Part shown: positions 16,451 through 42,118 of the stretch, piece after piece
Layout of the letters: each line of letters starts with the position of its first letter
Position numbering within the stretch: position 1 is the stretch's first letter
Made by a program: the position numbers and the translations under genes
Notes under the pieces: generated by a model
Databases searched by the model: none
Seen by the model: only the letters and a program-made list of their open reading frames with translations
What the model was told of the DNA's origin: nothing
Source of the DNA: Flavobacteriaceae bacterium
Lineage (GTDB): Bacteria; Bacteroidota; Bacteroidia; Flavobacteriales; Flavobacteriaceae
Assembly (NCBI GenBank): GCA_016649715.1
Contig: JAENXC010000023.1
Location: 1-43,792, forward strand
Direction: 5' to 3'
Length of the DNA stretch: 43,792 nt

Positions 16451-16515
16451 TATTTACTTTTATTTTAATCTAATACTTGCTCTCTCCAACACTCTTTTGC
16501 TTTCTTCTATTATTT

Positions 16516-17367: not shown

Positions 17368-17431
17368 CCATTGCTGTTTTTAATTGATTACAGTTCCTGA
17401 ATATCTTTTTCAATCATCTTAAATTCTTCTA

Positions 17432-17971: not shown

Positions 17972-18031
17972 TGTTTAACGACTATGCAATAGTAGCTGGA
18001 ACAAGGTTTGGATCTTTATTGATAGAATCTT

Positions 18032-21229: not shown

Positions 21230-21235
21230 GATATT

Positions 21236-23949: not shown

Positions 23950-23996
23950 CAAATATAAAACAATACAATCGCATCTCTTTACGGGATTCCGCATTT
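23950..23996 (-). promoter_or_regulatory. Shared promoter motif, copy A (hsdM operon)
   Basis: Read on the minus strand: AAATGCGGAATCCCGTAAAG, 19 bases, then TATATTTG. On the plus strand the -7 box is 23950-23957 and CCGTAAAG is 23977-23984. The dyad CGG-N4-CCG sits just upstream of where the -33 box is expected. The leader to the hsdM ATG would be about 20-25 bases. Confidence 0.75.
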
Positions 23997-24258
23997 GGAA
24001 CATATAAAAATTCCAATTCCAAATATACCATTTATCTTAAGAGCATTTTAACATATAACACCCATTTTACCGTATAATCATTTGAATTATAATAAGCGAT
24101 TTATCATTAAAACGGCGCAAGATTAAATGTTCAAAAGGCAACCAACAAACAACAAATAATTACGAACCAGTAATTTACAAGTACTTTTCTCTTTTTTAAT
24201 TGGAGAAAATGTTTTATTTTAGTAATAAATCTCCCCGCTAACTTTAAATATTTTTGAT

Positions 24259-24486
24259 ATGGATTCAAAAAGGAAAAAATTTAGAGATGATTGGATGATG
24301 AAGATCGCTCTAAGGGAAGAGGAAGTTATGGACCTGCTCGGGTTTAGTAAATCTACTATGGGCAGGTTACGCAGAAGTGGGGAGATACCGCATTCAAAAG
24401 TGGGAGGTTCCTATTTTTATTTGCCAAAAGCACTAAAAAAGATGCTCAAAGAAAAAATGGTAAAGCCCACGCGGGATGATTCATAA
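24259..24486 (+). CDS. Small excisionase/BldC-like helix-turn-helix protein
   Basis: A 75-residue DNA-binding protein with a MerR-like (HTH_17, excisionase) domain: a basic N-terminus, REEEVMDLLGFSKSTMGRLR as helix-turn-helix, then a GEIPHSKVGGSYFYLPKALK wing, and a basic end. Such short proteins act as recombination directionality factors or, like BldC, as transcription regulators. No integrase gene is nearby in the window. It is divergent from hsdM, with promoter copy A in between, so it is a candidate regulator of that operon; this is an inference. A strong terminator follows. Confidence 0.8.
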   Translation: MDSKRKKFRDDWMMKIALREEEVMDLLGFSKSTMGRLRRSGEIPHSKVGGSYFYLPKALKKMLKEKMVKPTRDDS

Positions 24487-24509
24487 ATTCCGTAACTGTA
24501 TTCAAAAAA

Positions 24510-24539
24510 AAAATGGCGAGGAATAGTCCTCGCCATTTT
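24510..24539. terminator. Bidirectional terminator between convergent genes
   Basis: AAAATGGCGAGGA (24510-24522) and TCCTCGCCATTTT (24527-24539) pair perfectly over 13 bp with loop ATAG. A tracts and T tracts on both sides serve both the HTH gene and the DUF6266 gene. Confidence 0.92.
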
Positions 24540-24559
24540 CATTAAACCACTTAGCAACA

Positions 24560-25207
24560 TTAGGTAACAATAGCCGTCCCAATATAGGAACTAATAGCAG
24601 CTACTTTTCTATCTGCACTAACCATGGTTCCCCATACCTGCACCTCATCGCCACTAAAATACGTAGGCATACTAAGCTGTATGGTCGCTTCACCGCGTAG
24701 CGCCGCAGGATCAAAAATTTGAAACAATTCCTGGGTAGCAGAATACACCACTGCCAACACCAAATCGTCGGCTGCTGCGGAGCCTTGCCCGCTGTTGTCT
24801 GTCCAGTTTAGTTCCAAAATTCTTCCCGGCTGTGCCACCACTGTGCCGCTTTCCATTCCTCTTAGCCCTCCTTTGCTAAGGAGCACCTTGGAATAATCTA
24901 ACGCAAAGCCACCACCCACCAAGTCAATAATGGCGTAGGAAAGGTTGTAGCCTACTGCTAAGTTAAAGCGCGATTTAGATCTGTATTTGTTACCAAAATA
25001 CACACCCACCACATCTTGGATGGGAGTTAAGAACTTCATAACCAATGCAAACTTTTCACGCTGTTCAAGTTGCTTTTCGGTCCCTGAGTCCTTAGGTCGT
25101 TTTCTAGGAGCTTTGCGCAACAAGTCCTCGCCACGCCAGTTGTACCCCACTACTCTGCCTACTCTTCCGGAGAAACCTCCGAAAATTCCATCTGGTATTT
25201 TTCCCAT
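24560..25207 (-). CDS. DUF6266 family protein
   Basis: A 215-residue protein of DUF6266, a family common in Bacteroidota. The N-terminus MGKIPDGIFGGFSGRVGRVV followed by YNWRGEDLLRKAPRKR is the family signature. A helix with QLEQREKFALVMKFLTPIQ and a beta-rich C-terminus with TWGTMVSADR-like strands follow. There is no signal peptide. The function is unknown; members often occur in many copies and in mobile or surface-related contexts. It is a single gene convergent with the HTH gene. Confidence 0.88.
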   Translation of the reverse strand: MGKIPDGIFGGFSGRVGRVVGYNWRGEDLLRKAPRKRPKDSGTEKQLEQREKFALVMKFLTPIQDVVGVYFGNKYRSKSRFNLAVGYNLSYAIIDLVGGGFALDYSKVLLSKGGLRGMESGTVVAQPGRILELNWTDNSGQGSAAADDLVLAVVYSATQELFQIFDPAALRGEATIQLSMPTYFSGDEVQVWGTMVSADRKVAAISSYIGTAIVT

Positions 25208-25791
25208 GATGTTAAAATTTAAATTAATAAATCAGTTAAAATTTCAGAGCTAAAATAGAACGCAATTTCCTGACAAACAAACGCTTGAAGAAATTGACCG
25301 CATTTGAAAAGTATTGATTGCTTTAGGTAACTTTTGCAACATATTTTACAACTTATGAAAGTTTTAGATCCAGTTTTAACCCCTAAAAAATCCAAGTGAA
25401 AACTCATAGTTTGTTTAGGCAACTTTTATCAAACTTTAGAAACCTATTAAAAGTTTTTGGCGGTTTATATATACTATTAAAACACTTATAGCAACTATGG
25501 GGCAACTTTAGTAGTTGTTAGTGCACTATGCTTCTCTAAAACAAAATTTGCCCACATTTGACCGCTTTTGATAAAAATTCATAGCCTCACTATTCCAATT
25601 ATGTACGCTCTTTGTTCGAGTCTTGTTCGAGACTCATTCATATATCCTTCGGATAAGAGCCCTTTATTCGAACAAGGTTCGAACAACGACCAAACAAGGA
25701 ACGAATAAAGCCATATCCAAAATTGAGGCTTTTCGTGGTAAAGGGAGGGAGAAACGGGTAAGGCATATGGAATATTAAATATTTAATAACA
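25208..25791. other. AT-rich non-coding region with short iterons and hairpins
   Basis: No gene was found. The part 25325-25520 repeats GGCAACTTT/AGGTAACTTTTG words, and TTGACCGC(A/T)TTTGA appears twice (near 25290 and 25560). From 25605 to 25710 there are several inverted repeats: GAGTC...GACTC, TATCC-TTC-GGATA and CTTTATTCG (25662-25670) with CGAATAAAG (25702-25710), with GTTCGA words in between. It could be a regulatory region or an old recombination site. Confidence 0.45.
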
Positions 25792-25949
25792 CTAAAAAAT
25801 ATATTTTTACTGAGGGAAAGGAGCGTTTAACAGTCCTAATTTGCACAAGAATGTGTGTTCCCCGCCCTGAAAGGGAGGGGTGGCAACTTTAGTTGACGGG
25901 GTGGGTATACTTTTTAAAACTAAAAGATAAATACCCCTTCCGGCCGCCG
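25792..25949 (+). repeat. Dispersed repeat of about 140-160 bp, copy 1
   Basis: Nearly identical to 40953-41093. The shared core includes TTGCACAAGAATGTGTGTTC, CCGCCCTGAAAGGGAGGGG, GGCAACTTTAGTTGACGGGG and ATACCCCTTCCGGCCGCCG. The left end also matches 41161-41197. Both long copies have the same orientation and bracket the 29-40 kb cluster. Confidence 0.9.
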
Positions 25950-26032
25950 AAGAGGTATATTAATAATAAATGTAAATTATCCTTAAAGATCGATCTTGGC
26001 TGTAAAGTTTTGAATAAAAAAGACCCTTTACC

Positions 26033-26395
26033 TTAATTACAATCACACTTATAATCAAAAATATACTTGTGGAACCTTTCCCCATAAGAGTCCGTATCGC
26101 CATAACCACCTGAGTAAAATCTTAGCCAGTTGCTATAAGGAATACCACAAAAAATATAGGGTTTGGAGGTATAGCTATATTCATTAGCTTTAATATTGGC
26201 TACCACAAAATAATTCATGTCATAACTGTATAAAGTTACCTTTGTAAGCCAACTGGAGTCCAAGGTATAACTGCTCACACTGCTATTGTACATTCCTTTT
26301 GTTTCTATATAGTTCAACAGTTCCTCGCAAGACACTGATTGGGCGGTAAGGTTTAAGGAAAAGACAAAAAGGGATATCGTGAAGAAATGTTTCAT
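26033..26395 (-). CDS. Small exported hypothetical protein
   Basis: A 120-residue protein with a signal peptide (MKHFFTISLFVFSLNLTAQS). The mature part has five cysteines in all, ending CDCN, and is rich in Tyr and Ser (about 90 residues). It was not recognised. It lies 21 bases after the lipoprotein gene 26417-27220, so both are probably one operon driven by promoter copy B. A periplasmic or cell-surface location is likely. Confidence 0.65.
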   Translation of the reverse strand: MKHFFTISLFVFSLNLTAQSVSCEELLNYIETKGMYNSSVSSYTLDSSWLTKVTLYSYDMNYFVVANIKANEYSYTSKPYIFCGIPYSNWLRFYSGGYGDTDSYGERFHKYIFDYKCDCN

Positions 26396-26416
26396 ATTTC
26401 TGGAGTGTTTAGTTCA

Positions 26417-27220
26417 TTAATCTCTCTTGTTTACTTTTCGAACCTTATTCGGGTCATTTCCTTCTCCAATATTTATAAAGAAATATCGGTTGTCCTTATA
26501 AGGAAGTATTTCTTTTCCGTATTCTGGCCTTCTAAACCGTTCTGCATTTCTGTAAAATTGTGCTTGGTCCATTTCTAAAATCTTGCTGATATAAAATTCA
26601 TTATCAACATAAAATTCCTCTGTAAAGTTTTCGGTCAGTGAAAAAGTTAGAAAATTTCTAAAAACTCGGGGAGTAGTATTTTTGTTGTATTCCTTATAAA
26701 AAACTTTTGTTGTTTTCTTTGAACCTTCTCTTAAAGCAACTTCTGTATAGGGTCCATTCTTGTCCAAAACAACGAAACTCCAAGGAATAATATAGAATTG
26801 ACCGCGTGTATATTTGGATTTTGGGGGAATGAATGTAATTCTTTCCTCTTTAACCGTGGCAGAAGTTGATACCCCTGCGGAAGATCTAGTTCGTAAAAGG
26901 GAGTTATCAAAATAATAGCTCGCATAAAGTGAATTTGTTCGCTCCACATCTTCCCAATAATTTAGCTTAACATCATTAGCTATATAGGATGATTTTCGCC
27001 AATCTATATATAAAGACACATTGAGTTTATTGTAGATTTCAAATTTCATCAATCCTTTTTTCCCCCAGAGATTGTAAATTATTTTTAAGGAATCATTTTC
27101 AAAAACGTAGGTTTGGTCAACAGTTTTTACGTTGTCCGCTTTGGTTTCGAAAACCTGTACGTAAGTTTTGCATCCTACTATGGAGAGTCCGAGAAATAAG
27201 AGAAGTAGTTTTTTTGCCAT
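26417..27220 (-). CDS. Lipoprotein, hypothetical
   Basis: A 267-residue lipoprotein. The signal MAKKLLLLFLGLSIVGC gives a lipobox SIVGC with Cys17. The mature part is beta-rich (VDQTYVFENDSLKIIYNLWG, KFEIYNKLNVSLYIDWRKSS) with a helical end holding DQAQFYRNAERFRRPEYG. It has no named family that I recognise; the early strands resemble small Ig-like lipoproteins of Bacteroidota that react to loss of partner proteins. It is the first gene of a two-gene operon. A decayed paralogue of its first 60 codons, with the same promoter, lies at 38562-38775, so the gene has been duplicated. Confidence 0.7.
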   Translation of the reverse strand: MAKKLLLLFLGLSIVGCKTYVQVFETKADNVKTVDQTYVFENDSLKIIYNLWGKKGLMKFEIYNKLNVSLYIDWRKSSYIANDVKLNYWEDVERTNSLYASYYFDNSLLRTRSSAGVSTSATVKEERITFIPPKSKYTRGQFYIIPWSFVVLDKNGPYTEVALREGSKKTTKVFYKEYNKNTTPRVFRNFLTFSLTENFTEEFYVDNEFYISKILEMDQAQFYRNAERFRRPEYGKEILPYKDNRYFFINIGEGNDPNKVRKVNKRD

Positions 27221-27251
27221 TGGGTGATGGTTTTATCGAGGTATCTTTTTT

Positions 27252-27298
27252 CAAATATAAAACAATGCAAATCCATCTCTTTACGGGAATCCGCATTT
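27252..27298 (-). promoter_or_regulatory. Shared promoter motif, copy B (lipoprotein operon)
   Basis: On the minus strand: AAATGCGGATTCCCGTAAAG, 19 bases, TATATTTG. On the plus strand the -7 box is 27252-27259 and CCGTAAAG is 27279-27286. The ATG of the lipoprotein is about 32 bases downstream. Confidence 0.75.
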
Positions 27299-27405
27299 GG
27301 AACAAATTTTTTTACGGGGAGAAACGTAAATATATCAATTCCCGAAAGTACTTCCTCAATAAAAATAATAATCTCGTTAAAGAGTAAATCTATAAAAATA
27401 AATAA

Positions 27406-27446
27406 AATTGAAAAACCCACCAACAAGTATTTGGTGTTGGTGGGTT
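27406..27446 (-). terminator. Terminator after the outer-membrane barrel gene
   Basis: AACCCACCAACA (27414-27425) and TGTTGGTGGGTT (27435-27446) form a perfect 12-bp stem with a 9-base loop. In the minus direction a T tract follows. It ends just inside the region left of the stop of 27454-28191. Confidence 0.88.
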
Positions 27447-27453
27447 CTTTTAC

Positions 27454-28191
27454 TTAGAAGGAGAGGCCAAAATCAATACTTAAGGCTCCTGAGTTTTTTC
27501 TATAAATACCACTTTGATATCCATAATAGTAATCGTAATCATAAAATTCCATGCTCTGCATTTCATAACTCAAACCTACGTTCAAAGCCACTCTTTCAGA
27601 AACATTGAAGGTTACCCCTGAGGATGGACTCACCAACAACCCCACCGCTTCAAAGTCATTGGAAGCATTAAAAGTATAACCAATAGACAAAGCGAAATAG
27701 GGAGATACTTTTTTATCCAAGACATTTGCTCTTGCATGCACAAAAACCGGGATGAGCGCAGCATCGTCATCAATGTAGTAGCGTAAGCCAGTTCCTCCAC
27801 CTATGAAAAAGAAGGGGCTGATCTGTCCGCCATTGATAATATTGATTTTTAAACGATCCATTCCGTAATCGCCGAGGCCAAATTGGTAACCAAATTCTGC
27901 GATTCCCCTGTAGCCACTTTTCAGGCCCGAGCCTTCACTGGGTGGAGTTGGATTATCTATTTTAGCTACGGTTTTTTCTTCTTTGGTGAGTTTTTTAATC
28001 TCATCCATTTGATATACAAATATACTCCTGTCCGCAGTTTCAATCTTAATGGACTCGTTTGGCACTTGTTCAATTATTACTCCGCGAATGACGCTTCCAT
28101 TTTTTAAATAAACAACATCTTGATAGTTGTTTTGAGCTAGCACAAAGGTGCTGATTAAGGTAAATAAAATAAGTGTAAAGATTTTTTTCAT
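27454..28191 (-). CDS. Outer-membrane beta-barrel protein with N-terminal SH3-like segment
   Basis: A 245-residue exported protein. The signal peptide is MKKIFTLILFTLISTFVLAQ. Residues 24-70 (VVYLKNGSVIRGVIIEQVPN, IKIETADRSIFVYQMDEIKK) form a small beta domain frequent at the start of Bacteroidota membrane proteins. Residues 95-245 show alternating barrel strands rich in Tyr and Gly and end in SIDFGLSF with the final Phe typical of outer-membrane barrels. The substrate or function is unknown. A strong terminator follows. The closest upstream promoter seen is copy C, about 215 bases away, so a long leader or another unseen promoter is possible. Confidence 0.82.
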   Translation of the reverse strand: MKKIFTLILFTLISTFVLAQNNYQDVVYLKNGSVIRGVIIEQVPNESIKIETADRSIFVYQMDEIKKLTKEEKTVAKIDNPTPPSEGSGLKSGYRGIAEFGYQFGLGDYGMDRLKINIINGGQISPFFFIGGGTGLRYYIDDDAALIPVFVHARANVLDKKVSPYFALSIGYTFNASNDFEAVGLLVSPSSGVTFNVSERVALNVGLSYEMQSMEFYDYDYYYGYQSGIYRKNSGALSIDFGLSF

Positions 28192-28270
28192 GTGTTCTAT
28201 GTTTTTGGGTTATTAAAGTTTATTACTTTGAAAACAGAATTCCCAAAGTTTAAAAGGTGAAAAGGATGTA

Positions 28271-28300
28271 TCAGGGTGAATCAGGGTGAATCAGGATGAA
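28271..28300. repeat. 10-bp tandem repeat
   Basis: TCAGGGTGAA occurs twice and TCAGGATGAA once, in the leader region between promoter copy C and the barrel gene. Confidence 0.85.
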
Positions 28301-28374
28301 TCCAAATTTAATTTATCGTTTTTAAAATGTAATTGTAAATAGGGAAGAAGAAAAAAATGTAATTTTTTTATCAT
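28293..28374 (-). pseudogene. Vestigial lipoprotein start after promoter copy C
   Basis: Downstream of promoter C the sequence follows the leader of the lipoprotein gene at 27220 (AAAAAGATAC...GATAAAA) and its start (ATG, then an AAAAAAA tract and a TTACATTT run resembling the CTACTTCT of the paralogue). The open frame ends after 27 codons. I read it as a remnant of a third copy of the lipoprotein 5' end; the alternative is a short leader peptide. Confidence 0.4.
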
Positions 28375-28406
28375 TTATTGATGGTTTTTATCGGAGTATC
28401 TTTTTT

Positions 28407-28453
28407 CAAATATAAAACAATGCAAATGCATCCCTTTACGGGATTCCGCATTT
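28407..28453 (-). promoter_or_regulatory. Shared promoter motif, copy C
   Basis: On the minus strand: AAATGCGGAATCCCGTAAAG, 19 bases, TATATTTG. On the plus strand the -7 box is 28407-28414 and CCGTAAAG is 28434-28441. It reads towards the outer-membrane barrel gene. Confidence 0.7.
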
Positions 28454-29069
28454 GGGACAAATTTTTCTGGTTTTCCTTAGCTCTACTCCTACGTAGAAGC
28501 TTCGGTGCACTAAAAGCTACGGAGATCATAGGGAGAATACCAAAGGTATCGAATCCCCAAAACACTGCATTACTAAAAATGGTTTTCTCGATAAAGTGAA
28601 GGAAGATAAACTTCTCTGATAAATGTAGTAAAACGTCAATTAAAAGCAAAAGTCAAGGGAAAATAAAAGATTTTTTGAGAATATCAATGTATTGTTCAAT
28701 TGCATTTATGTAGGTTCCCAAACTATATATACATAGTTCAGCCTGTATTTATGTACTCTTCGTGACGGATAAATGCATAGTCCCCCTACCCCTCATGCTA
28801 CTCGAGTGCTACGTTTATGCTAGTGTTTCCCTACTAAACCCCTATTGTAATGCTAGTATCATAAAATGCGAGCTTTTTAAAAATTCAAGCGAATGCTAAA
28901 ATATTCTCTGGTTTTAATTTTTAATGATCAACGTTAAGATCGGTTATAAACACTATGGACATCCTCTTAAATCATTGATAGGCTTTAAGTCAAGCGCTCC
29001 CTGTTTGTCAAGATTAAAGAAATTCATTTGCGAATTTTTTATAGCTTTGTCAAGGTTTGCTAAATCCTA
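28454..29069. other. Intergenic region, no gene seen
   Basis: The part near 28540-28610 matches the DNA upstream of copy D (AATCCCCAAAACACTG at both), so the duplication reaches beyond the promoter. From 28650 to 29069 nothing was recognised; it holds the downstream side of the FHA gene. Confidence 0.45.
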
Positions 29070-30887: not shown

Positions 30888-31174
30888 AAAGTCAGATTCT
30901 TATTAAAATTAAAACAAAATATTCCATTTCAGAAATTAAATAATTTTCACCCATCCTTGATAAGTTACCCAATGTTGGAAATAAAAGCGCCAAACAATGC
31001 GGGTATTCCTTTTGATAAATATTCTTTTAGAGGAATAAAACACTTTTAGCTCGGATATAAATCTATATAAATTTTTGTTAAAAAATTGAATCTTCACAAA
31101 TAATTTATCCGTAGGTTTGAAAAATACACAATTGAAATAGGGATATTTTAAAAGGAATCGGAGAATTTTATCCA
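30888..31174. other. Divergent spacer left of promoter copy E
   Basis: About 290 AT-rich bases between the FHA gene start and promoter E. No coding region was recognised. No copy of the shared motif points towards the FHA gene; a degenerate TATTTTG box 50 bases upstream of its ATG is the only candidate. Confidence 0.4.
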
Positions 31175-31221
31175 AAATGAGGGATTCCGTAAAGTTTGGC
31201 TAAATTAATTCTATATATTTG
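31175..31221 (+). promoter_or_regulatory. Shared promoter motif, copy E (SPFH operon)
   Basis: AAATGAGGGATTCCGTAAAG (31175-31194), 19 bases, TATATTTG (31214-31221). It is not part of a longer duplication with the other copies, so the match of both boxes and the spacing is independent support. The leader to the ATG at 31295 is about 70 bases. Confidence 0.75.
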
Positions 31222-31294
31222 AGAAGAATTGAAAAGTAAACAGCAAAGCATCAGCAAAATAAATCCAATAATATAAACTTTAATTATAACAATT

Positions 31295-32545
31295 ATGAAA
31301 ATAATTGATCTCGTAAGCTGGGCTCCTCAAGGAAATTACAATATTTATGCCTATAGGTTTCCCCATACAAATCTCAGCACATTTACACAACTTCTTGTAT
31401 CGGAATCACAAGAGGCTATTTTATTTTCAAAAGGACAGATAGTAGGAAAGTTCGGGCCTGGAAAGCATACGCTAAACACCGAGAATTTACCCAAACTTAG
31501 GATTCTTTACGGCTTGCCTTTTGGTGGTAAAAACCCATTTACGGCAGAAGTTTGGTTTGTGAACAAGCTTCAACCCTACAATATTGATTGGGCTATTGAC
31601 AGAATGGATATTCACGATTCCGACTACAACACGGGCATCCCTTTGGTCGCCAATGGCAGATATGGTTTAAAAATTAAAGATGCTGAACGGTTTCTCATTA
31701 AAATTGTGGGGACAAAAAACTCTTTTGACCAAAGCGATTTAACCGATCAGTTTTTTGGGGAGTTTTCAACGAAAACAAAATCTTCGGTTTTGCAGTTCAT
31801 GATTAAAAATAGAATTGGTTTAAAACAAATTTCAGCCCATTTAGATGATATCTCCGAACATTTAAAAACAATAATGCTTCCATTTTGGGAAAATCTGGGA
31901 TTGGAACTTACAAAATTTTATGTTACCAGCATCGAAGTCGATAATTCTACCGAAGAAGGCAGAAGGGTTTTAGAGGCAATTTCAAGACAAAGTGCACAAT
32001 CTATTGGTGGATATACTTGGCAACAAGAAAAAGCATTTGATGTAGCAAAAGACGCTATTGAAGGATTTTCCAATGGTAATTCTGATATTATAGGTGCTAT
32101 ACTTGCTACTGGCATGATGGGCGGTTTAGGTGGTGCGGGGGGGGTTATTCACCCACAATACAATCAGCCGTCTTTTGAAGGCACTAATCAAGAACAGCAA
32201 AACGGAGCTGCTCAGCCTGCCAATCCAACAAAGCAGGTTTATTGCTCAAATTGTTCGAAGAAATTTCCAAATTCACATCGCTTTTGTCCTCACTGTGGTG
32301 ATCCTTATGATGCTTGCCCCAAATGTGGTACCGACAATGACAAAAATGCAAAACGATGTGTGAGTTGTGGCACCCATTTCCAAAGTGAAATGATCTTGTG
32401 CTCCAATTGCAATACCGCTCTACCGCCAGGAAGCCCCTTTTGTGGGAGTTGCGGAAAACAACATGCAGATGATAAATGCAGCAGATGTGCAAATCCCTTG
32501 GCACCTTCTATAAAATTCTGTCCAAAATGCGGGCAAAAGCGATAA
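31295..32545 (+). CDS. SPFH-domain protein (YdjI-like) with four zinc ribbons
   Basis: A 416-residue protein. Residues 1-250 match the SPFH/Band-7 form of YdjI ('virion core protein' in databases): an N-terminal segment with QEAILFSKGQIVGKFGPGKH, VWFVNKLQPYNIDW, and a long helix EEGRRVLEAISRQSAQSIGG. A Gly-rich linker (about 265-285) follows, then four zinc-ribbon units (CSNC/CPHCG, CPKCG/CVSCG, CSNC/CGSCG, CSRC/CPKCG). In Bacillus subtilis YdjI brings PspA to the membrane under envelope stress, so a membrane-platform role is likely. It is the first gene of a six-gene operon with gaps of 4-24 bases. The zinc ribbons may bind partners. Confidence 0.88.
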   Translation: MKIIDLVSWAPQGNYNIYAYRFPHTNLSTFTQLLVSESQEAILFSKGQIVGKFGPGKHTLNTENLPKLRILYGLPFGGKNPFTAEVWFVNKLQPYNIDWAIDRMDIHDSDYNTGIPLVANGRYGLKIKDAERFLIKIVGTKNSFDQSDLTDQFFGEFSTKTKSSVLQFMIKNRIGLKQISAHLDDISEHLKTIMLPFWENLGLELTKFYVTSIEVDNSTEEGRRVLEAISRQSAQSIGGYTWQQEKAFDVAKDAIEGFSNGNSDIIGAILATGMMGGLGGAGGVIHPQYNQPSFEGTNQEQQNGAAQPANPTKQVYCSNCSKKFPNSHRFCPHCGDPYDACPKCGTDNDKNAKRCVSCGTHFQSEMILCSNCNTALPPGSPFCGSCGKQHADDKCSRCANPLAPSIKFCPKCGQKR

Positions 32546-32561
32546 TTTAAATTAAATAAAT

Positions 32562-33272
32562 ATGGAGTTAAAAAAAATATTTTGGCTATTGCTCCTCCTA
32601 ATTGGGGAATTATTAATAATTATCAGCTTTCTATATTTCGGAAAAAATGTGGAAAGTGAAATACTTACGTTGAATATTGTAGTATCCTCAGTAATCTATG
32701 GTCTTTTCTTTATCGATATTCTTATTCCTTGGGTTGACTTTAATGACAAATCACAAAAAACAATTGGCGCCCTTGGGGTACGATGGTTTTTTACTTTACT
32801 ATATGTAATTCTTGCAATTGGTGTTATGGCGGCATTTAACGATGCCCAACCCATGGCCTTTAACACTCAGTTACTTATTCATAGCATCCTTTTCTTCGTC
32901 CTAATCCTAGGTTTTTACTTGTCTTTTATTGCTGCTGAAAAAGTGAAACAAGTATATGTGGAAGAAACGCAACTCCGCAACCAAATTGACGGCATGAAAA
33001 AAGTCACGAAAGAATTACAGCTAAAGTTAGACACGATGCAGGATATTCCCTCAGAAATCATTTCCCGTATTGACGAACTTCAAGAAAATCTCAGGTTTCT
33101 TTCGCCCTGCAACAATAGTTCGGCGGTTGAATTGGAAAAACAATTTATCGATGAGATGAGAGTATTGGACCTTAGTTTTTCTGAAACACCACTAAATCCT
33201 GAAAATTCCATAAGCCATATTAAAAATTGCGAGAGAACTTATAACGAGCGGAAACAAGTTTTCTCAAATTAA
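32562..33272 (+). CDS. Four-TM membrane protein with C-terminal coiled coil
   Basis: A 236-residue protein, not in a family that I recognise. Four membrane helices fall at about residues 6-27, 33-55, 70-92 and 103-125. A cytoplasmic helix (YVEETQLRNQIDGMKKVTKE) predicts a coiled coil, and the C-terminus is soluble. It starts 16 bases after the SPFH gene. It probably anchors the coiled-coil and SPFH proteins of the operon in the inner membrane; this is an inference from order and topology. Confidence 0.7.
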   Translation: MELKKIFWLLLLLIGELLIIISFLYFGKNVESEILTLNIVVSSVIYGLFFIDILIPWVDFNDKSQKTIGALGVRWFFTLLYVILAIGVMAAFNDAQPMAFNTQLLIHSILFFVLILGFYLSFIAAEKVKQVYVEETQLRNQIDGMKKVTKELQLKLDTMQDIPSEIISRIDELQENLRFLSPCNNSSAVELEKQFIDEMRVLDLSFSETPLNPENSISHIKNCERTYNERKQVFSN

Positions 33273-33296
33273 AATAAACCTAAAATTTCAAACAGT

Positions 33297-35486
<2,190 letters not shown>

Positions 35487-35506
35487 CGCATTTAATCCTT
35501 AGAATC

Positions 35507-36433
35507 ATGGCAACATTCAATTACACAGTAGATACAAAGCCAATGGCCCAGGAAATGAGTAGTGTTTCACGTCACGTGAATGCAACTACTGGCGCCGTTG
35601 TAGCGATGCAAGCTGCCGTTATTCTCGCGGAAGAAAGGGCGGCAGACCATGTTTGCAACAACGTGAATAAAGGTTTTTATTCCTTGATACGGTCTCAGAT
35701 CTCGCAGAAAATGGCAAAACTTCAAAGCGAGGTGGACTCTCATCTTATGCAATTGGTGCAGCAAAAAAATGCTTTAACAGGCATTAAAAAGCGAATGGAG
35801 AAAGATTATAACATGATTGCGGGTAGATATCTCAAGTTATTTAATGGCCTAAATGTAAATCTAAAACAACGTGTTTTTGAACTGGACAAACCTACGATTG
35901 ACTTTGCCGTAAAAGAGGTTGATAAAGTTTCTAATAGAGCAAAATACCTAACGGCCACAATCCCAATCACACAATTAGAATCCTTATCGGAAAGTCAGAA
36001 GATTGTTGCTTCCAATATAAAACACAGAGGTTTAAATGTAATTAAATCCATGAGAACCTTCTTATTTGAGATGAATACTCAAAAAAAACTTACTGACCAA
36101 ATCTTGATAAATGACGGTAGATATACTAAAACAGCTGCTGTATATATCCCAATTTTGATATGTGAATGCAATAGGGATAAAACGGATAGCAGTATTGAAA
36201 TCACAATTTCTAATGTGGAATTGGACAATTTATCAAAATCAACAATAAAGAACACCGCTTTTGCCGTATTACAAAAAATTCAATGGAAACAGCAAACTAC
36301 ACCTAATACGGAAGTTAAAAGTGAATTCAGTAAACTCGTCTTATCCTCTTCAAAATCACAAAGAGTTAAAGATTTAGCCTTACAATTGTTTCATTCTGCA
36401 AATTACCAAACCATCCAAACAACAAAACTATGA
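35507..36433 (+). CDS. Helical scaffold-like protein, paralogue 1
   Basis: A 308-residue protein, unknown but clearly paralogous to the next gene product. They share VNATTGAVVAMQAAVILAEE / MNVNLLTGAVVATEAAQL, then FYSLIRSQISQKMAKLQSEV / FGYIRSEISQQVAELSVNID, a K(R/Q)ME.D....I.G.Y.K.F..LN helix, and VFELDKP. The build is a long helical hairpin, comparable in shape to PspA-like or coat-forming proteins, but no sequence link to PspA can be claimed. It lies 20 bases after the coiled-coil gene and overlaps the next gene by 4 bases (ATGA), so the two are translated together. Confidence 0.75.
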   Translation: MATFNYTVDTKPMAQEMSSVSRHVNATTGAVVAMQAAVILAEERAADHVCNNVNKGFYSLIRSQISQKMAKLQSEVDSHLMQLVQQKNALTGIKKRMEKDYNMIAGRYLKLFNGLNVNLKQRVFELDKPTIDFAVKEVDKVSNRAKYLTATIPITQLESLSESQKIVASNIKHRGLNVIKSMRTFLFEMNTQKKLTDQILINDGRYTKTAAVYIPILICECNRDKTDSSIEITISNVELDNLSKSTIKNTAFAVLQKIQWKQQTTPNTEVKSEFSKLVLSSSKSQRVKDLALQLFHSANYQTIQTTKL

Positions 36434-37488
36434 GTTATGATAGAAGCTATAGTGAGATAATAACGGTAAGAGGTTCCAAAACTATTTCTGTTTCCTATCC
36501 CGCATCAGAAAGAGGTGGTACTACATCTGCTACTGTTCATTATACTGAAGAGGTGCCGGTAAATGTAAATATCAATGTGGACACTGATCCATTTGATTAT
36601 AGTGTGGAAGACTGTAATATGAATGTCAATTTATTAACAGGTGCAGTGGTAGCTACAGAGGCGGCACAATTGGTGTCTATTAATAACAATTCCAAAAAAG
36701 TTGCAAAAACCATTGTTTCAGGCTTCTTTGGTTATATCCGTTCTGAGATAAGCCAACAAGTTGCGGAACTTTCGGTAAACATAGATGCGCAGCTAATGCA
36801 CTTAAAAGAATTATCACAATCCTGTCTCGCTAAGAAGAAGCAAATGGAAGGGGATTTCTTGAGAATTTCAGGCCATTATGTTAAGATTTTTGAAGATCTA
36901 AATTCTGAACTTTCCAATAGAATATTTGAACTGGATAAACCTGCTTTTGTATTTAAGAAAGAGCTGGACAACCAAAAGATAAGATCATCAAATAATGATT
37001 TGGTGAATACGGTTGCTATTTTTGGCAAGGAAAGCGGAGAACTGCAATCAAAAGTTAGTGCTTCAATTGCTAAAAAAAGAGCATTGGATACCTTAACCCA
37101 AGCGAAAATATTTCTTTGGCAACAGAAAAAATTAAACTGTACCGTTCAAAAAAGTATGATAAACGAGAGTATTGCAACTTCTCAATTTTCTCCAGTTTGT
37201 TTTATTGAAACAAAGGCAGATAAAAACCAAATCGATAAAAGTTTATTCGCACCCAATTTTATAACTGCTTTTCAGAACACTTCAAAAAGGAATGAACTCC
37301 TAGAGCAATTTTCTGAACCCTCTAAATCCTGGCGTATTATGTCAACGACCTATAATGATAATTTGAAAATATATTTTAATGCCGAAGTAAACAAAACATA
37401 TTCAACGGCGGAACCACATTCGGTTAGAGTAAAAGAGATGATTCAAAAAATCTCCAACCTTGGGTCAATAAACGTACTTAGTTATTAA
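36430..37488 (+). CDS. Helical scaffold-like protein, paralogue 2
   Basis: A 352-residue paralogue of the preceding product. An added N-terminus of about 55 residues (Thr/Ser- and Val-rich, probably beta or disordered) precedes the shared helical core: LLTGAVVATEAAQLV, FFGYIRSEISQQVAELSVNI, IFELDKPAFVF. The C-terminal half is less alike. The pair suggests a hetero-oligomer. Cytoplasmic, with no signal peptide. It ends 20 bases before the bactofilin-like gene. Confidence 0.75.
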   Translation: MSYDRSYSEIITVRGSKTISVSYPASERGGTTSATVHYTEEVPVNVNINVDTDPFDYSVEDCNMNVNLLTGAVVATEAAQLVSINNNSKKVAKTIVSGFFGYIRSEISQQVAELSVNIDAQLMHLKELSQSCLAKKKQMEGDFLRISGHYVKIFEDLNSELSNRIFELDKPAFVFKKELDNQKIRSSNNDLVNTVAIFGKESGELQSKVSASIAKKRALDTLTQAKIFLWQQKKLNCTVQKSMINESIATSQFSPVCFIETKADKNQIDKSLFAPNFITAFQNTSKRNELLEQFSEPSKSWRIMSTTYNDNLKIYFNAEVNKTYSTAEPHSVRVKEMIQKISNLGSINVLSY

Positions 37489-37508
37489 AATATTTAAAAA
37501 ACACCAAA

Positions 37509-38483
37509 ATGAAAGAATTAAAAGAACTTCGATTTAATGAAACCAATATTCAGCTGAAGGATAATTTGGTGAAAGGCTCTATACTTCCTGAAAAAATTGC
37601 TGAATTAAACAGAACCATAACTATTCAAGGTGGAACTTTAATAGAAGGCCCGGTTTATGCCCATAAACTTGAAATACAACAAGGGGATTCAGAAATACAA
37701 GGTGCGGTATTCACCCAACTCGAATTATATATAAACAGTGAAGCCAAGGGAAATATTTCTTTCAAAAAGAGTGTTGGCTCCGCAAATTCAATAGTTTCCA
37801 GAGCGCAAGATTGCAATATTATCTTTCATTCAGATATAAATGCAAAAAGCGTAACCCTTTATAATGCATTTGTGGCGGGAAGTATTTATGCCGATGAGGT
37901 TATTCTTGAAAACTGCGTAGTGATTGGAGGTGTATTTGCAACTCAAACTATCGATTTAACAAATTCAATTGTCGGTACTTTTAACACTCCTTCCATAAAG
38001 GCAGCCCAAATGGTAAGCTTTCTTTTACCTAGTGCTTTTTCAATAGAAAAAATTATTGTTATTCCGGGCACCAAGTTTTACAATTTAAGTCTCGCGGATT
38101 TAGGTTCTCTTTACAAAGGATTAGAACAAGCCACAAATTCAGGGAAGATTGAAATGAATATCGATACCGATGAGGTAAAGACGACTTTAACAAATGACGA
38201 AACTCAAAAAACACTTCGCAGCTATACGGTGGTAGGAAAAGTACTGGCAGCAGATCTGTTAGATATGGATAAATTTCAAAATCACTTCCTTCTTACTGCA
38301 GCAAGTTTAGGTTCACAACTTCTAAAAAACTATGACTTGGGACTAGATTCAAATGGAGAGCAAGCCACATTGAGCATGGAAAAAATAAAAGAATTCTTTT
38401 TTGCCATTTTACACGGAAAAATTGAAATTCAGAATATAGACGGAAGCTTCAATATTTCAGAGATAACTGGAAAACTAAATTAG
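37509..38483 (+). CDS. Bactofilin-like polymer-forming protein
   Basis: A 324-residue protein. Residues 30-190 have the short repeated strands and turns of a right-handed beta-solenoid as in bactofilins (polymer-forming cytoskeletal proteins): TLIEGPVYAHKLEIQQGDSE, FTQLELYINSEAKGNISF, DINAKSVTLYNAFVAGSIYA, then VILENCVVIGGVFATQTIDL. The C-terminus (about 200-324) is helical and not part of known bactofilins. Bactofilins form stable filaments at membranes that hold other proteins in place. It is last in the SPFH operon, so the operon seems to make a membrane-associated polymer with scaffold partners. The family link is a fold-level call. Confidence 0.7.
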   Translation: MKELKELRFNETNIQLKDNLVKGSILPEKIAELNRTITIQGGTLIEGPVYAHKLEIQQGDSEIQGAVFTQLELYINSEAKGNISFKKSVGSANSIVSRAQDCNIIFHSDINAKSVTLYNAFVAGSIYADEVILENCVVIGGVFATQTIDLTNSIVGTFNTPSIKAAQMVSFLLPSAFSIEKIIVIPGTKFYNLSLADLGSLYKGLEQATNSGKIEMNIDTDEVKTTLTNDETQKTLRSYTVVGKVLAADLLDMDKFQNHFLLTAASLGSQLLKNYDLGLDSNGEQATLSMEKIKEFFFAILHGKIEIQNIDGSFNISEITGKLN

Positions 38484-38561
38484 TGGATCTCATATCTAAA
38501 GCAAACATTTTTATGACGCTATCCCAATAAGTGTCACTTCAAAATATAATAGGTTTCATGC

Positions 38562-38775
38562 TATAAAGGCACATTTAGTTTATTATAGATATCAAATTTC
38601 ATCAATCCCTTTTTTTCCTCCAAAGATTATAGGTTATTCTTAAAGAGACATTCTCATAAACATAAGTGTCATCAACAGTTTTTACGTTATCCGCTCTAGT
38701 TTCAATAACCTGTACATAACTTTTGCATCCAACCATGGAGAGTCCGAGAAATAAGAGAAGTAGTTTTTTTGTCAT
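38562..38775 (-). pseudogene. Truncated, frameshifted copy of the lipoprotein gene at 26417-27220
   Basis: The reverse strand starts ATG at 38775 and reads MTKKLLLLFLGLSMVGCKSY, nearly the same as the intact lipoprotein. After about 52 codons a homopolymer holds seven T on the plus strand instead of six in the intact gene, shifting the frame to a stop after 57 codons. Homology continues without frame to about 38562 and then ends. The promoter (copy D) is intact. Confidence 0.88.
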
Positions 38776-38800
38776 TGGTATGAGGCTTTACTTTTTTTTT

Positions 38801-38847
38801 CAAATATAAAACAATGCATATCCATCTCTTTACGGGATTCCGCATTT
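38801..38847 (-). promoter_or_regulatory. Shared promoter motif, copy D (lipoprotein pseudogene)
   Basis: On the minus strand: CGGAATCCCGTAAAG, 19 bases, TATATTTG. On the plus strand the -7 box is 38801-38808 and CCGTAAAG is 38828-38835. It now drives only the pseudogene. Confidence 0.7.
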
Positions 38848-39149
38848 AGGACAAATTTTCTGACGAGAGTATCAAATATATCAAATCCCCAAAACACTGT
38901 ATACTTAAATGCGGTATTTTCGATGAACAGTTGCGAACTTTATTGGGCTTTCTGTTCTTAAAAGAGAATAAGAATTACATTTGCTTCCATTTGATACTGT
39001 TCCCTAATTAACGAAAGACCCACCCTGTTAAAACTATAATGTTGCTTTATCTTCCTTTTTTTGAAGGTTTATAGTATTTTTATAGGCTCCCTACTTTAAA
39101 ATCTATTGTTGGGGTAATATTCTATACTAATTTATTAAAATATATACTC

Positions 39150-39278
39150 ATGGAAAATTATAAAGATTCCCATCGCCCAAAACAAAGCCCTGTTGATCCG
39201 GAGAAGAACAATGCCAGTCAGGAAAAGGAATATAGAAAAGATAAAAGGGATGGGAAAATAGATGATTCTGAGGAATGA
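39150..39278 (+). CDS. Very small hydrophilic protein
   Basis: A 42-codon frame starting MENYKDSHRPKQSPVDPEKN and ending KRDGKIDDSEE. It is strongly charged and likely disordered, with no cysteine or membrane segment. Such short charged proteins are often annotated in flavobacteria, but I cannot assign a family. It begins in an A+T-rich leader and is followed by the GGGATTA repeats. Coding status is uncertain. Confidence 0.45.
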   Translation: MENYKDSHRPKQSPVDPEKNNASQEKEYRKDKRDGKIDDSEE

Positions 39279-39282
39279 AAAA

Positions 39283-39370
39283 GGGGGATTAGGGATTAGG
39301 GATTAGGGATGAGGGAATTAGGAATTAGGGATGAGGGATTTGGGATGAGGGATTAGGGATTAGGGATTTG
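39283..39370. repeat. Degenerate heptamer tandem repeat (GGGATTA)
   Basis: About a dozen GGGATTA / GGGATGA / GGGATTT / GGAATTA units directly after the small protein gene. Bacteroidota chromosomes often hold such 7-mer tracts between genes. Confidence 0.85.
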
Positions 39371-39450
39371 AAAAACGATTCAATATTCAATATTCAATTT
39401 TCAATTTTCAACTATCAACCCCATCATCGTTCAAATTATTTATTGATTGT

Positions 39451-40167
39451 ATGCTTATTGCTCCTATGAAAGATTTATCCCTTACCGTGAATCAAATTCA
39501 AGAGGTCACGAGTTTTCAAGACTTAGTTGATACGCCTTTTCGAGGTGAAATTAATGCGCTGTGCTGGAACCGCACCTTGAGAGGTGATTTTTCTGAGATC
39601 GCTAAAAAGGCAGTCTGCAAAGGAAATATGGCGACCATTAGCCCGGAGGAACTGCTCGAACTTAAGCTGAGTGAACAAGGAAAGCTTGCTCGTGAGGTAC
39701 TTTTAAACGACTTGAAACTATTGGAAGGCTATGGCGCAGCTCCCATTCTAAATGTAATTGAGAATTATGAGCGGGATGAGGACTTTCCGTTGTTGCCAAC
39801 CGATGTTTATTCGTTTCATGTAGATCGTTCTCCTGTACCGACCGATACATTTTTATGCACCTATTACGGTGCGTCAAGTGACATACTACCAAATGCAGAA
39901 GCCATTCAAAAAGTACTTGTTCCGGAAATACGAGTTGAACTCAAAAAACTTTATCAAGGGGAAGGAGACGCCGGTTTTGAAGCCTTTTTAAGGGAATACT
40001 TCTTTGATCTACACTATGAAATTAAGCCAAATGCACGTCCCATCAGTTTAGGGATTGGCAACTTATGGAAGTTGGCGGTTGATTATCCCGAAAGCAACGT
40101 ACTCCCCTGTGTGCACCGCGCTCCGAAGGAAAATGATGGAGAGAGGCGTTTGTTGCTGATTTGTTGA
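39451..40167 (+). CDS. DUF1826-like protein (possible cupin or dioxygenase fold)
   Basis: A 238-residue protein. The core has a FHVDRSPVPTDTFLCTYYG segment (HxD), a further GIGNLWKLAVDYPE strand, and a VLPCVHRAPKENDGERRLLL end. This pattern of HxD, then a late HR(A/S)P before RLLL resembles DUF1826, a family whose His/Asp placement recalls the metal site of cupin-like dioxygenases. The match is from memory and the N-terminal 80 residues are less typical. Alternative start at Met6. It stands alone between the GGGATTA tract and the zinc-ribbon gene. Cytoplasmic. Confidence 0.5.
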   Translation: MLIAPMKDLSLTVNQIQEVTSFQDLVDTPFRGEINALCWNRTLRGDFSEIAKKAVCKGNMATISPEELLELKLSEQGKLAREVLLNDLKLLEGYGAAPILNVIENYERDEDFPLLPTDVYSFHVDRSPVPTDTFLCTYYGASSDILPNAEAIQKVLVPEIRVELKKLYQGEGDAGFEAFLREYFFDLHYEIKPNARPISLGIGNLWKLAVDYPESNVLPCVHRAPKENDGERRLLLIC

Positions 40168-40349
40168 TTTATATTAGTTGCTATGATTAAGAGGCTGGAA
40201 GTTGGAGGCTAGAGGCTGGAGACAGGAGACAGAAATTTTGAACTTTGAACTTTGAATTTTGAACCTGAAACTTAATTAATAAAAATCCAACTTCCATTTG
40301 GAGTATTCAACTTCATTATTATATATAGCAAAACGTGATTTCCTATAGC

Positions 40350-40580
40350 TTATAGCTTACTCCAAGAATGGGAGCTAGCCTTAGGGCATCCCAATGATGA
40401 TGGAGTTGAATTCATCTGAACTACAGTTCCACATTTTTTACAGCTATAATTGGTATCTCCCACTTCGCCCAATTTAGACCAACTGTGAATTGATTTAACC
40501 GAACATCCTAAACTACTCGGAGTTGGGCCTTTTTTAATTGCGATTCCACAATTTTCGCATTGAAACCATTTAAGTGACAT
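40350..40580 (-). CDS. Small two-unit zinc-ribbon protein
   Basis: A 76-residue protein counted from the ATG at 40580 (a TTG start at 40631 would add 17 basic residues). It has two tandem copies of the same unit: FQCENCG...GPTPSSLGC...HSWSKLG and YSCKKCG...NSTPSSLGC...SSHSWSKL. Each unit offers CxxC plus a later Cys and His for one zinc ion. It was not recognised as a named family. Promoter copy G lies upstream; from that TSS (about 40631) the ATG at 40580 leaves a leader of about 50 bases, which supports this start. Confidence 0.65.
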   Translation of the reverse strand: MSLKWFQCENCGIAIKKGPTPSSLGCSVKSIHSWSKLGEVGDTNYSCKKCGTVVQMNSTPSSLGCPKASSHSWSKL

Positions 40581-40636
40581 AAAGAAAATATTTTTAGAAT
40601 TGCCTACTCTTTTGGTTTTCGGCCTCCCCAATGAAA

Positions 40637-40671
40637 CAAAGCTAAAACTTCGTTTTTAATATATTTTACGG
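40637..40671 (-). promoter_or_regulatory. Shared promoter motif, divergent copy G (zinc-ribbon gene)
   Basis: On the minus strand: TTACGGTTTTCCGTAAAA, 19 bases, TAGCTTTG. On the plus strand the -7 box is 40637-40644 and CCGTAAAA is 40664-40671. The dyad CGG-N4-CCG is extended here to TTACGG-TTTT-CCGTAA. It is less similar to the others, but the spacing is identical. Confidence 0.5.
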
Positions 40672-40898
40672 AAAACCGTAATCGGCTTGCTTTTTTATAA
40701 AATTTTTAAACGGCATCACCCACTCCAAGCAATCAGATTGTTCGGAGCATCTAAAAATATCGGCAATCACATATCCTGTAAACTCAAAATAGAGCCCGTG
40801 CTTAAATCCAGAATGGTTAGCTGTAAGCACAAAGACGGGCGGCCACTTCTACGCTGAAAAGCTTGTGCCTCCGCTAAAGCTTCAGCGACACGCGGACG

Positions 40899-40920
40899 AA
40901 GGGGAAGGCACCTTCCCCTT
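40899..40920. repeat. Perfect 10-2-10 inverted repeat
   Basis: AAGGGGAAGG (40899-40908), CA, CCTTCCCCTT (40911-40920). It lies at the left side of dispersed repeat copy 2 and may be a terminator or part of the repeat family. Confidence 0.7.
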
Positions 40921-40952
40921 TATTGCCTGTTTTGCTTTTAATTGAAGTTTCT

Positions 40953-41093
40953 TGAAAGGGGAAGGAGCGGTTAACAATCCAAATTTGCACAAGAATGTGT
41001 GTTCCCCGCCCTGAAAGGGAGGGGTGGCAACTTTAGTTGACGGGGTGGGTATACCTATTAAAACTAAAAGATAAATACCCCTTCCGGCCGCCG
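40953..41093 (+). repeat. Dispersed repeat of about 140 bp, copy 2
   Basis: Nearly identical to 25813-25949 and in the same orientation. The TTGCACAAGAATGTGTGTTC, GGCAACTTTAGTTGACGGGG and CCCTTCCGGCCGCCG blocks are shared. An antisense frame through this repeat is not a gene. Confidence 0.9.
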
Positions 41094-41160
41094 GAAAAGA
41101 TTTATAACAATAAAGAAAATACGTAGCGGCGGCCACCTTCCTCTTTATCAGCATTAGGCT

Positions 41161-41197
41161 CTAAAAAATATTTTCGCTGAGGGGAAGGAGCTTTTAT
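41161..41197 (+). repeat. Partial third copy of the dispersed repeat
   Basis: CTAAAAAATATTTTCGCTGA then GGGGAAGGAGCTTTTA matches the left end of copy 1 at 25792-25830. The rest of the repeat is missing. Confidence 0.7.
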
Positions 41198-41426
41198 TTC
41201 AGAAGAAAACTGCTAACAAACCATCTCAATAACACTCTTTCTGCTATGCAGAAATCCGAACCAATTTAGGAGTGCTCCTTCCCTTTTGCAAAACCATCAC
41301 TAAAAATCCAAATCCCAAAAAAGATAAGGTTCAAAGAATGGAAGGGGGTTAACAAAGAGGGGTTGTGATGAAGCCTTTTTAGGACAAATTGGATAGGGAT
41401 ATTAAGTATTCTGAATTTTTTTTACG
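41198..41426. other. Intergenic region, nothing recognised
   Basis: About 230 bases between the partial repeat and promoter F, without a gene or clear structure. Confidence 0.4.
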
Positions 41427-41474
41427 TAAATGAGGAATCCCGTAAAATAGATCGGATTTGGTTTTTTATATTTG
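41427..41474 (+). promoter_or_regulatory. Shared promoter motif, copy F (DUF4407 operon)
   Basis: AAATGAGGAATCCCGTAAAA ending at 41447, 19 bases, TATATTTG (41467-41474). Like copy E its flanks differ from copies A-D, so similarity is limited to the functional boxes. The leader to the ATG at 41573 is about 90 bases. Confidence 0.75.
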
Positions 41475-41572: not shown

Positions 41573-42118
41573 ATGAAGAATATCTTTCTTTTTTCTGACT
41601 CTCTTAGACAGTTTGGTAAATACCTAAAATTTCAATCCTTAAAATTCAGGAAATGGATATTTATTCTGTTTAAAAGAAATAGAAAATTACATAAAATCTC
41701 ATTTGACTATTATAAAAACTGGCAGTTTGAACATGGTTTATTGGTTATTAATTTCCAGTTTAAAAATGCCATTTGGTATAAAATAGGAGATTATAAAAGT
41801 TTGGATTTCATAAAGCCAATTTTCTTGAATCTACAAAATACAAAATCAGACCTTGTTGTATTTGAGGTTTATGGATTTTTCCAAAAACAAGTTTATTACA
41901 TTAAGCTAAACAAAGCAACAAAGATTGATAACCAACCTTTCAATACTAAAATTTTTAATATTTCTGAATTGACAATTATGCCTAATCAGATATTTCCCCA
42001 AATGACAAAACCGATAATCAAAGTGGATAAACCAAAAGTAAAAATCAGTGGGTTATCAGTTGAAAGTATTAGTATAGAAATTATTCCAAGTAAATTTAAA
42101 ACCCAAGACTATATATGA
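41573..42118 (+). CDS. Hypothetical protein, partner of DUF4407
   Basis: A 181-residue protein that I do not recognise. The N-terminus is basic and aromatic (FGKYLKFQSLKFRKWIFILF), perhaps a membrane-touching helix. Residues 45-120 form a beta-rich domain, and the C-terminal 50 residues look like an extended strand and linker region (IIKVDKPKVKISGLSVESIS). The stop overlaps the ATG of the DUF4407 gene by 4 bases (ATGA), so the two are translated together. It is the first gene behind promoter F. Confidence 0.65.
   Translation: MKNIFLFSDSLRQFGKYLKFQSLKFRKWIFILFKRNRKLHKISFDYYKNWQFEHGLLVINFQFKNAIWYKIGDYKSLDFIKPIFLNLQNTKSDLVVFEVYGFFQKQVYYIKLNKATKIDNQPFNTKIFNISELTIMPNQIFPQMTKPIIKVDKPKVKISGLSVESISIEIIPSKFKTQDYI

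Follow-up and report, generated by a model that had tools for sequence, protein, structure and literature searches.

The DNA analysed here (the window) is a 43,792-nt stretch of a Flavobacteriaceae genome (assembly GCA_016649715.1, contig JAENXC010000023.1, positions 1-43,792 of the forward strand). It carries a type I restriction-modification (RM) operon, lipoprotein genes, an SPFH operon and a DUF4407 operon, and seven sites (A to G) in which the box CCGTAA is followed at a fixed distance by a promoter box. These sites are real and are members of a larger set, and their boxes form part of the palindrome TTACGGN4CCGTAA. They probably belong, with other sites, to one genome-wide immune regulon of about two dozen operators. 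The reading favoured here, to which we assign a probability of roughly three in four, is that this is a two-component immune regulon in Bacteroidota whose activator is a response regulator (RR) encoded next to some of the sites.

Seven promoter sites in the window

The sites and the genes behind them are as follows (ORF, open reading frame; aa, amino acids).

Site A, 23950..23990, reverse strand: dyad GGAATCCCGTAA, 21 nt, TATATTTG; the hsdM ATG follows after 28 nt
Type I RM operon behind site A, 13241..23921, reverse strand: by Pfam and PADLOC, the operon read from ORF order
hsdM 22353-23921, hsdS 21236-22369 and hsdR 13241-16450, reverse strand: genes of the site A operon, by Pfam
KAP NTPase gene 18032-21229 and ORF 17432-17971, reverse strand: site A operon
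Site B, 27252..27292, reverse strand: lipoprotein gene 26417-27220 follows after 31 nt, and after it 26033-26395
Site C, 28407..28447, reverse strand: before gene 27454-28191 (245 aa)
Site E, 31181..31221, forward strand: 73 nt before an SPFH/zinc-ribbon gene, then five more genes to 38483
SPFH operon, 31295..38483, forward strand: 31295-32545 is Band_7_1 with zinc ribbons; five genes without a Pfam match
Site D, 38801..38841, reverse strand: lipoprotein remnant
Site G, 40637..40677, reverse strand: perfect palindrome (TTACGGTTTTCCGTAA), then 21 nt and TAGCTTTG; a 76-aa ORF follows
Site F, 41434..41474, forward strand: 98 nt before 41573-42118, then DUF4407 gene 42115-43362
DUF4407 operon, 41573..43362, forward strand: by Pfam

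All seven sites lie where the initial annotation had placed them, A to F as exact matches and G with two mismatches (TAGCTTTG). The matches to the pattern are at 23950 (A), 27252 (B), 28407 (C), 38801 (D) and 40637 (G) on the reverse strand and at 31187 (E) and 41440 (F) on the forward strand. The annotated spacing of exactly 19 nt after CCGTAAAR, which equals 21 nt after CCGTAA, was confirmed. At up to three mismatches the window held nine matches compared to a mean of 1.8 in shuffled sequences, and none of 100 shuffles reached nine.

Searched across the whole genome (G000, 99.9% complete; 3.4 Mb in 71 contigs), GGN4CCGTAA-N21-TANNTTTG matched exactly at 18 places, of which the window contains 7, and the reversed pattern matched nowhere. 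The genome also had 11 perfect palindromes TTACGGN4CCGTAA, including that of site G. When the gap was left free in the 28 available genomes of the genus, the pattern CCGTAA-N14..28-TATATTTG matched 112 times, with 72 matches at a gap of 21 and at most 10 at any other gap; the reversed control gave 39 matches over all gaps. Across 116 site sequences the left arm of the dyad, which the search pattern left unspecified, showed conservation: position -48 is T in 98%, -46 is C in 73% and -41 is T in 97%.

The available text of PMC9723704 places the flavobacterial sigma-A -7 box at -12 to -5, with a consensus of the TANNTTTG type. This box is present at the sites, being itself part of the search pattern, and from its placement the dyad is centred at -41.5 and not near -43, as initially annotated. 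The predicted start site likewise moves to about 5 nt after TANNTTTG, instead of 6 to 8. A centre at -41.5 is the position of a class II activator. The reported absence of the -33 TTG holds in that TTG is rare, occurring within -37 to -29 in 13 of the 116 site sequences. Together, the fixed gap of 21 nt, the conserved left arm and the dyad position are sequence evidence that supports the class II activator proposed initially. The other option raised at that time, that the boxes are an alternative-sigma promoter with CCGTAA as a -35-like element and TATATTTG at -7, would also suit a fixed gap of 21 nt, but it is the least probable of the explanations considered here: the -7 box is the normal sigma-A consensus in the available text of PMC9723704, and the upstream part is palindromic with a left arm conserved to -48, unlike a sigma box.

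Genes behind the sites

The genome-wide scan for the motif found sites clustered before RM, CRISPR, other defence and unassigned genes, and not before recognisable housekeeping genes. The result that was named initially as refuting, a background-rate presence of the motif at unrelated housekeeping genes, did not arise. Sites outside the window (contig and position) were these.

C46:6543, one mismatch: second type I RM operon
C46:5759: lipoprotein gene preceding the second type I RM operon
C61:109040: BanI/DpnII-like type II restriction gene adjoining a 5-methylcytosine (5mC) methylase
C38:6162 and 7316: AlbA_2/KTSC protein and, further along, a PDC-S06 AAA protein; HNH-like protein (under the cut-off)
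C46:4544, one mismatch: cas9; this dyad also faces the tracrRNA, with a gap of 22 as read by eye
C63:26144 and 26694, perfect dyads: the second precedes cas1-cas2 and the array
C23, C61:2708, C46:5555 and C46:19758: mostly genes without assigned function
C4:96466 and C46:5122: no ORF behind the site, as for D

The candidate type II CRISPR-Cas system comprises Cas9 and Cas1 by Pfam and PADLOC, and Cas2, the array and the tracrRNA as read by eye; cas9 and cas1 lie on two contigs (C46 and C63) not shown to be joined.

Sites were present in 35 of 79 genomes, this one included, and in 23 of the 28 of the genus, with a genus total of 133. Downstream ORFs were read for 117 sites (18 from this genome and 99 of 115 in relatives), and for 105 of them a script detected an ORF of 60 aa or longer in the next 450 nt. 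From the relatives alone, the first protein and as many as three of those following it in the operon, all of at least 100 aa, were collected; removal of near-duplicates left 123 target proteins. Among the top 25 Pfam families, these matched N6_Mtase (7), ResIII (7), HsdM_N (5), HSDR_N (4), GmrSD_N (3), Shedu (2) and KAP (2), whereas epimerase, MFS and LacI-type domains headed the corresponding list for 123 control ORFs taken upstream of the kinase at named loci. In PADLOC, whose tables likewise list the top 25 families, 612 families were matched by targets versus 112 by controls. Single scans of site-linked proteins gave, among other examples, a TIR-TPR protein, an AAA_15 ATPase and Shedu. The proteins behind the genus sites are rich in RM, GmrSD and Shedu proteins. 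Counted from the side of the genes, 11 of 50 N6_Mtase genes (matches with E values of at most 5e-26, weaker ones dropped) had a same-strand site within 3 kb upstream and none had one downstream, compared to 0.11 expected if the sites were spread evenly over 90 Mb. As sequence facts, both this family of sites and its association with defence genes are firm.

Four pairings of site and gene, those of B, C, F and G, were found again in other species. Relatives 68 to 73% identical to the site B gene have an open frame behind the site at two loci (L293, L294) and a broken frame at a third (L281). Site C had been taken for a leader remnant; it precedes an intact gene (27454-28191), an 83% identical relative of which lies behind a site in another species (L308). 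The lipoprotein pseudogene assigned to site D stands as a remnant, with no ORF of at least 60 aa starting within 450 nt. The small zinc-ribbon gene at site G also stands, corrected to a 76-aa ORF from ATG (40350-40580, reverse strand); two species (L267, L299) have intact relatives of it, 75 to 76% identical, preceded by the same site. The site A operon is a type I RM operon in that HsdM, HsdS and HsdR are all present by Pfam. A Y1_Tnp-type transposase gene (16516-17367) lies inside it, adjoining the KAP NTPase gene, and a 75-aa ORF resembling a helix-turn-helix protein, judged by translation alone, is divergent from site A (24259-24486). Behind dyads at L267, L271 and L299 and in other genera there is a recurrent operon for TerB-like 130-aa, 420-aa and approximately 305-aa proteins. 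Short GGGATTAGGGATTAG-type repeats occupy 39290-39375, between site D and a DUF1826 gene.

The initial proposal that one regulon joins defence and membrane genes is supported by sequence evidence on its DUF4407 side and weakly on its SPFH side. In the genus genomes, where gene and site positions were compared by eye, all four genes of the window's DUF4407 subfamily (E values of 1e-60 to 1e-70) had a same-strand site within 1.5 kb upstream versus 0 of 21 genes of the main subfamily, and an additional DUF4407 gene in this genome (C5, E value of 1.6e-25) had no site. Three of the four are within 5 kb of an RR gene, and relatives that are 53 to 54% identical stand beside the RR gene in three genomes (G001, G005, G022). 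Among 12 SPFH genes over the E value of 1e-30, the window gene was the sole one with a site (0 of the other 11), and no orthologous pair of site E and its gene was found in relatives. A piece of a relative of the window SPFH gene (76 to 80% identical) occurs at L271:13816-14179, where the nearest dyad site is on the other strand.

A histidine kinase and response regulator beside cas1

The candidate regulators, a histidine kinase and an RcsB-like RR, are encoded outside the window, adjoining cas1. The two perfect dyads of contig C63 lie between the RR gene (C63:25406-26077) and cas1 (C63:26766-27650). The kinase has tetratricopeptide repeats (TPRs), an ATPase domain and an HDEVAN box, with a signal sequence and a single transmembrane segment read by eye. 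The RR matches the RcsB profile (E value of 8.5e-12), has RcsB as its best full-length PDB match and gave an RcsB-like full-length model; the receiver-domain residues D12, D61, S96 and K119 are invariant in 26 sequences.

The best 80 of at least 561 RR relatives, all from Flavobacteriales, were inspected with their flanks. A kinase match was present at all 80 loci, and the best kinase match was just upstream of the RR gene at 78. A perfect dyad lay within 500 bp downstream of the RR gene at 49 loci (approximately 2 expected, from a rate elsewhere of 0.029 per 500 bp that includes dyads in kinase genes), whereas a control dyad did so at none. A full site was found within 1.5 kb of the RR gene at 48 loci, the reversed pattern at none. 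The genes in the fetched flanks vary (hsdM at 7 loci, hsdR at 5, cas1 and cas9 at 4 each and DUF4407 at 2, some of them upstream), and recurrent lipoproteins and the TerB-like operon also follow the RR gene. In the genome set, a site was located within 1.5 kb of at least 18 of 40 strong RR hits versus 0 of 38 weak, distant paralogs. This comparison used 35 sites, chosen by hand from contigs with RR hits, and 38 weak hits (weaker ones dropped), with the sites of G051 and G075 left out. Across the 79 genomes, 29 had both a close RR and the motif, 6 the motif only, 6 the RR only and 38 neither (p of 5e-10, uncorrected for kinship). Dyads inside the kinase gene, about 750 nt before the RR stop codon, were rejected as operators because they encode a conserved N-A-E-N-R-I, and coding constraint is the simple reason for them.

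Several observations weigh against this RR as the activator of an immune regulon. The 80 loci are not independent, with many from Maribacter and Aequorivita, and 31 have no perfect dyad within 500 bp. Within the genus, co-occurrence of RR and motif was not significant (both in 19 genomes, the motif alone in 4, the RR alone in 3 and neither in 2; p of 0.29), and two genomes that are 99% complete carry sites (4 in G023, 3 in G024) and lack a close RR. Pfam gave no LuxR helix-turn-helix match on the RR, and its Response_reg match (E value of 1e-4) was under the cut-off. Four cas1 loci away from RR genes (L318-L321, 3.7 to 3.9 kb each) contain no perfect dyad. On the target side, many sites lead to genes without assigned function; the script found no ORF for 12 of the 117 sites, though at least two of these (L293, L294) have one; and the control ORFs, which come from the same loci upstream of the kinase and not from random genome places, hold some Cas and RM proteins. 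The dyad alone at up to two mismatches was unenriched across the whole genome (111 versus 204 for the reversed control), so that only exact or nearly exact sites carry meaning. With 39 of the 50 N6_Mtase genes lacking a site within 3 kb, the regulon would cover part, not most, of the RM systems.

Another regulator might bind the dyad, the RR locus being merely one of its targets. In line with this, six genomes have the motif without a close RR (G003, G007, G023, G024, G037 and G071, of which G003 and G007 are incomplete and G037 has RR fragments), and adjoining a target is no proof of binding. However, the dyad recurs just after the RR gene in many genera (49 of 80 loci) while the genes that follow vary, and none of the 38 distant paralogs has a nearby site. 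We consider such a regulator unlikely, although it is the most probable of the alternatives.

Directly after the RR gene and behind the first dyad is a structured RNA of approximately 85 nt (C63:26189-26272; L085:11190-11273), which is also found at the RR loci of relatives. It has a UUCU-GGGG-AGAA hairpin and a terminator, the stem of which is itself a dyad in several species. RNAalifold returned 17 pairs, of which 8 show one or more double changes, and a covariation term of +0.17, which is no net support. In 18 of the 28 genus genomes a covariance model found one strong copy, which in 17 cases was no more than 0.8 kb away from an RR hit. Fourteen of the 18 had supplied training sequences; only G004, G016, G020 and G022 were new, with three of the four copies beside an RR hit. 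The strong copy at G020:C27:309041 has no adjoining RR hit. Weak hits (E values of 1e-6 to 1e-3) were not counted, though those at G017:C4, G025:C6 and G027:C13 adjoin RR genes. None of nine source sequences had an Rfam match at the gathering score.

A second conserved element, TATATTTGGTATTCTCCCC, for example at L076, L077 and L303, stands about 22 nt before the dyad, or often about 54 nt where a hairpin of approximately 32 nt is inserted. TTCTCCC was present in the 130 nt preceding 41 of 117 sites, downstream of none and, on the reverse strand, upstream of 7. The element (UUCUCCCC) is complementary to the RNA, with a predicted duplex energy of -26.2 kcal/mol compared to -15.2 (standard deviation, 3.1) for shuffled targets, none of 300 of which was as low. 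No covariation between RNA and target was seen and the RNA in G001 carries a mismatch, so the pairing remains a suggestion. A tentative and rather doubtful extension is a two-layer immune alarm. The RR would switch on the defence operons directly and also a small RNA from its own locus, and the UUCU-GGGG-AGAA loop of this RNA would invade the UAUUCUCCCC element in 5' leaders transcribed from a second promoter some 22 nt ahead of many operators, tuning constitutive and induced transcription of the same immune genes together.

The sites could instead be a spreading repeat, or promoters recombining in defence islands, without any common regulation. The long flanks common to A-D, which were noted initially and confirmed here, would fit such an origin, as would the proximity of sites to one another (79 of the 133 are within 20 kb of another) and the second element and its hairpin insert. 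Sites E, F and G and the RR-adjacent sites of other genera, however, have little in common beyond boxes and spacing, and the pairs that recur in other species also speak against this explanation, which is very unlikely.

Proposed regulon and its relation to known systems

In the two-component regulon favoured here, the membrane histidine kinase, with its N-terminal TPR part, one transmembrane segment and HDEVAN box, would phosphorylate the RcsB/NarL-type RR. An RR dimer would bind TTACGGN4CCGTAA centred at -41.5 and activate sigma-A polymerase at promoters without a -33 element. Its targets would be CRISPR-Cas9 (cas9, tracrRNA, cas1-cas2), RM and other defence operons, together with lipoproteins, the SPFH, TerB-like and DUF4407 modules and the conserved RNA after the RR gene. 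We infer the RR as binder, its activating role and envelope damage or attack as the signal; the TPR sensor and the membrane modules suggest envelope damage.

A literature search, with most subscription papers and preprints outside its range, found no paper on the motif, the RNA or the regulon. The closest system is Gac/Rsm of Pseudomonas, which in the available text of PMC11888443 likewise consists of a kinase, a response regulator and small RNAs and brings phage-defence factors and other defence factors, in a variable assortment, under a single pathway. That text describes control as post-transcriptional via RsmA, whereas here an operator stands before each defence operon, so that control should be direct. 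The present system is also in Bacteroidota, with an RR nearest RcsB among PDB sequences. According to the same text, little is known on co-regulation of unlinked defence pathways, for which Gac/Rsm is the worked case, and its authors speculate that similar pathways in other phyla may await discovery. The Rcs phosphorelay, which reacts to envelope stress in the source text available, is alike in its NarL-type RR; the kinase here differs in being a TPR protein with an ATPase domain in which no further relay domain matched Pfam. In Serratia, host regulators (Rsm/Csr and PigU) control CRISPR-Cas, and Rsm controls several CRISPR systems together, but the regulators are different and the available portions of PMC8450108 and PMC10810281 mention no operator common to CRISPR and RM. 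WYL-domain regulators are also transcription factors tied to defence genes; they appear in the available text of PMC11888443 as repressors of single systems, unlike the one presumed activator of unlinked systems here, and that of PMC10693628 names one WYL activator.

If the proposed regulon is correct, a direct operator common to CRISPR-Cas9, restriction and membrane modules in another phylum would mean that coordinated immunity arose more than once. The dyad would then be a sequence tag for finding new defence genes, such as the unannotated SPFH operon, and a single mutant, in the RR or the histidine kinase, could test what the cell treats as danger. To our knowledge, bacterial defence systems have mostly been studied singly. 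In many related species the dyad lies beside one sensor-regulator pair, which suggests that much of the immunity of these bacteria may be run as one coordinated response.

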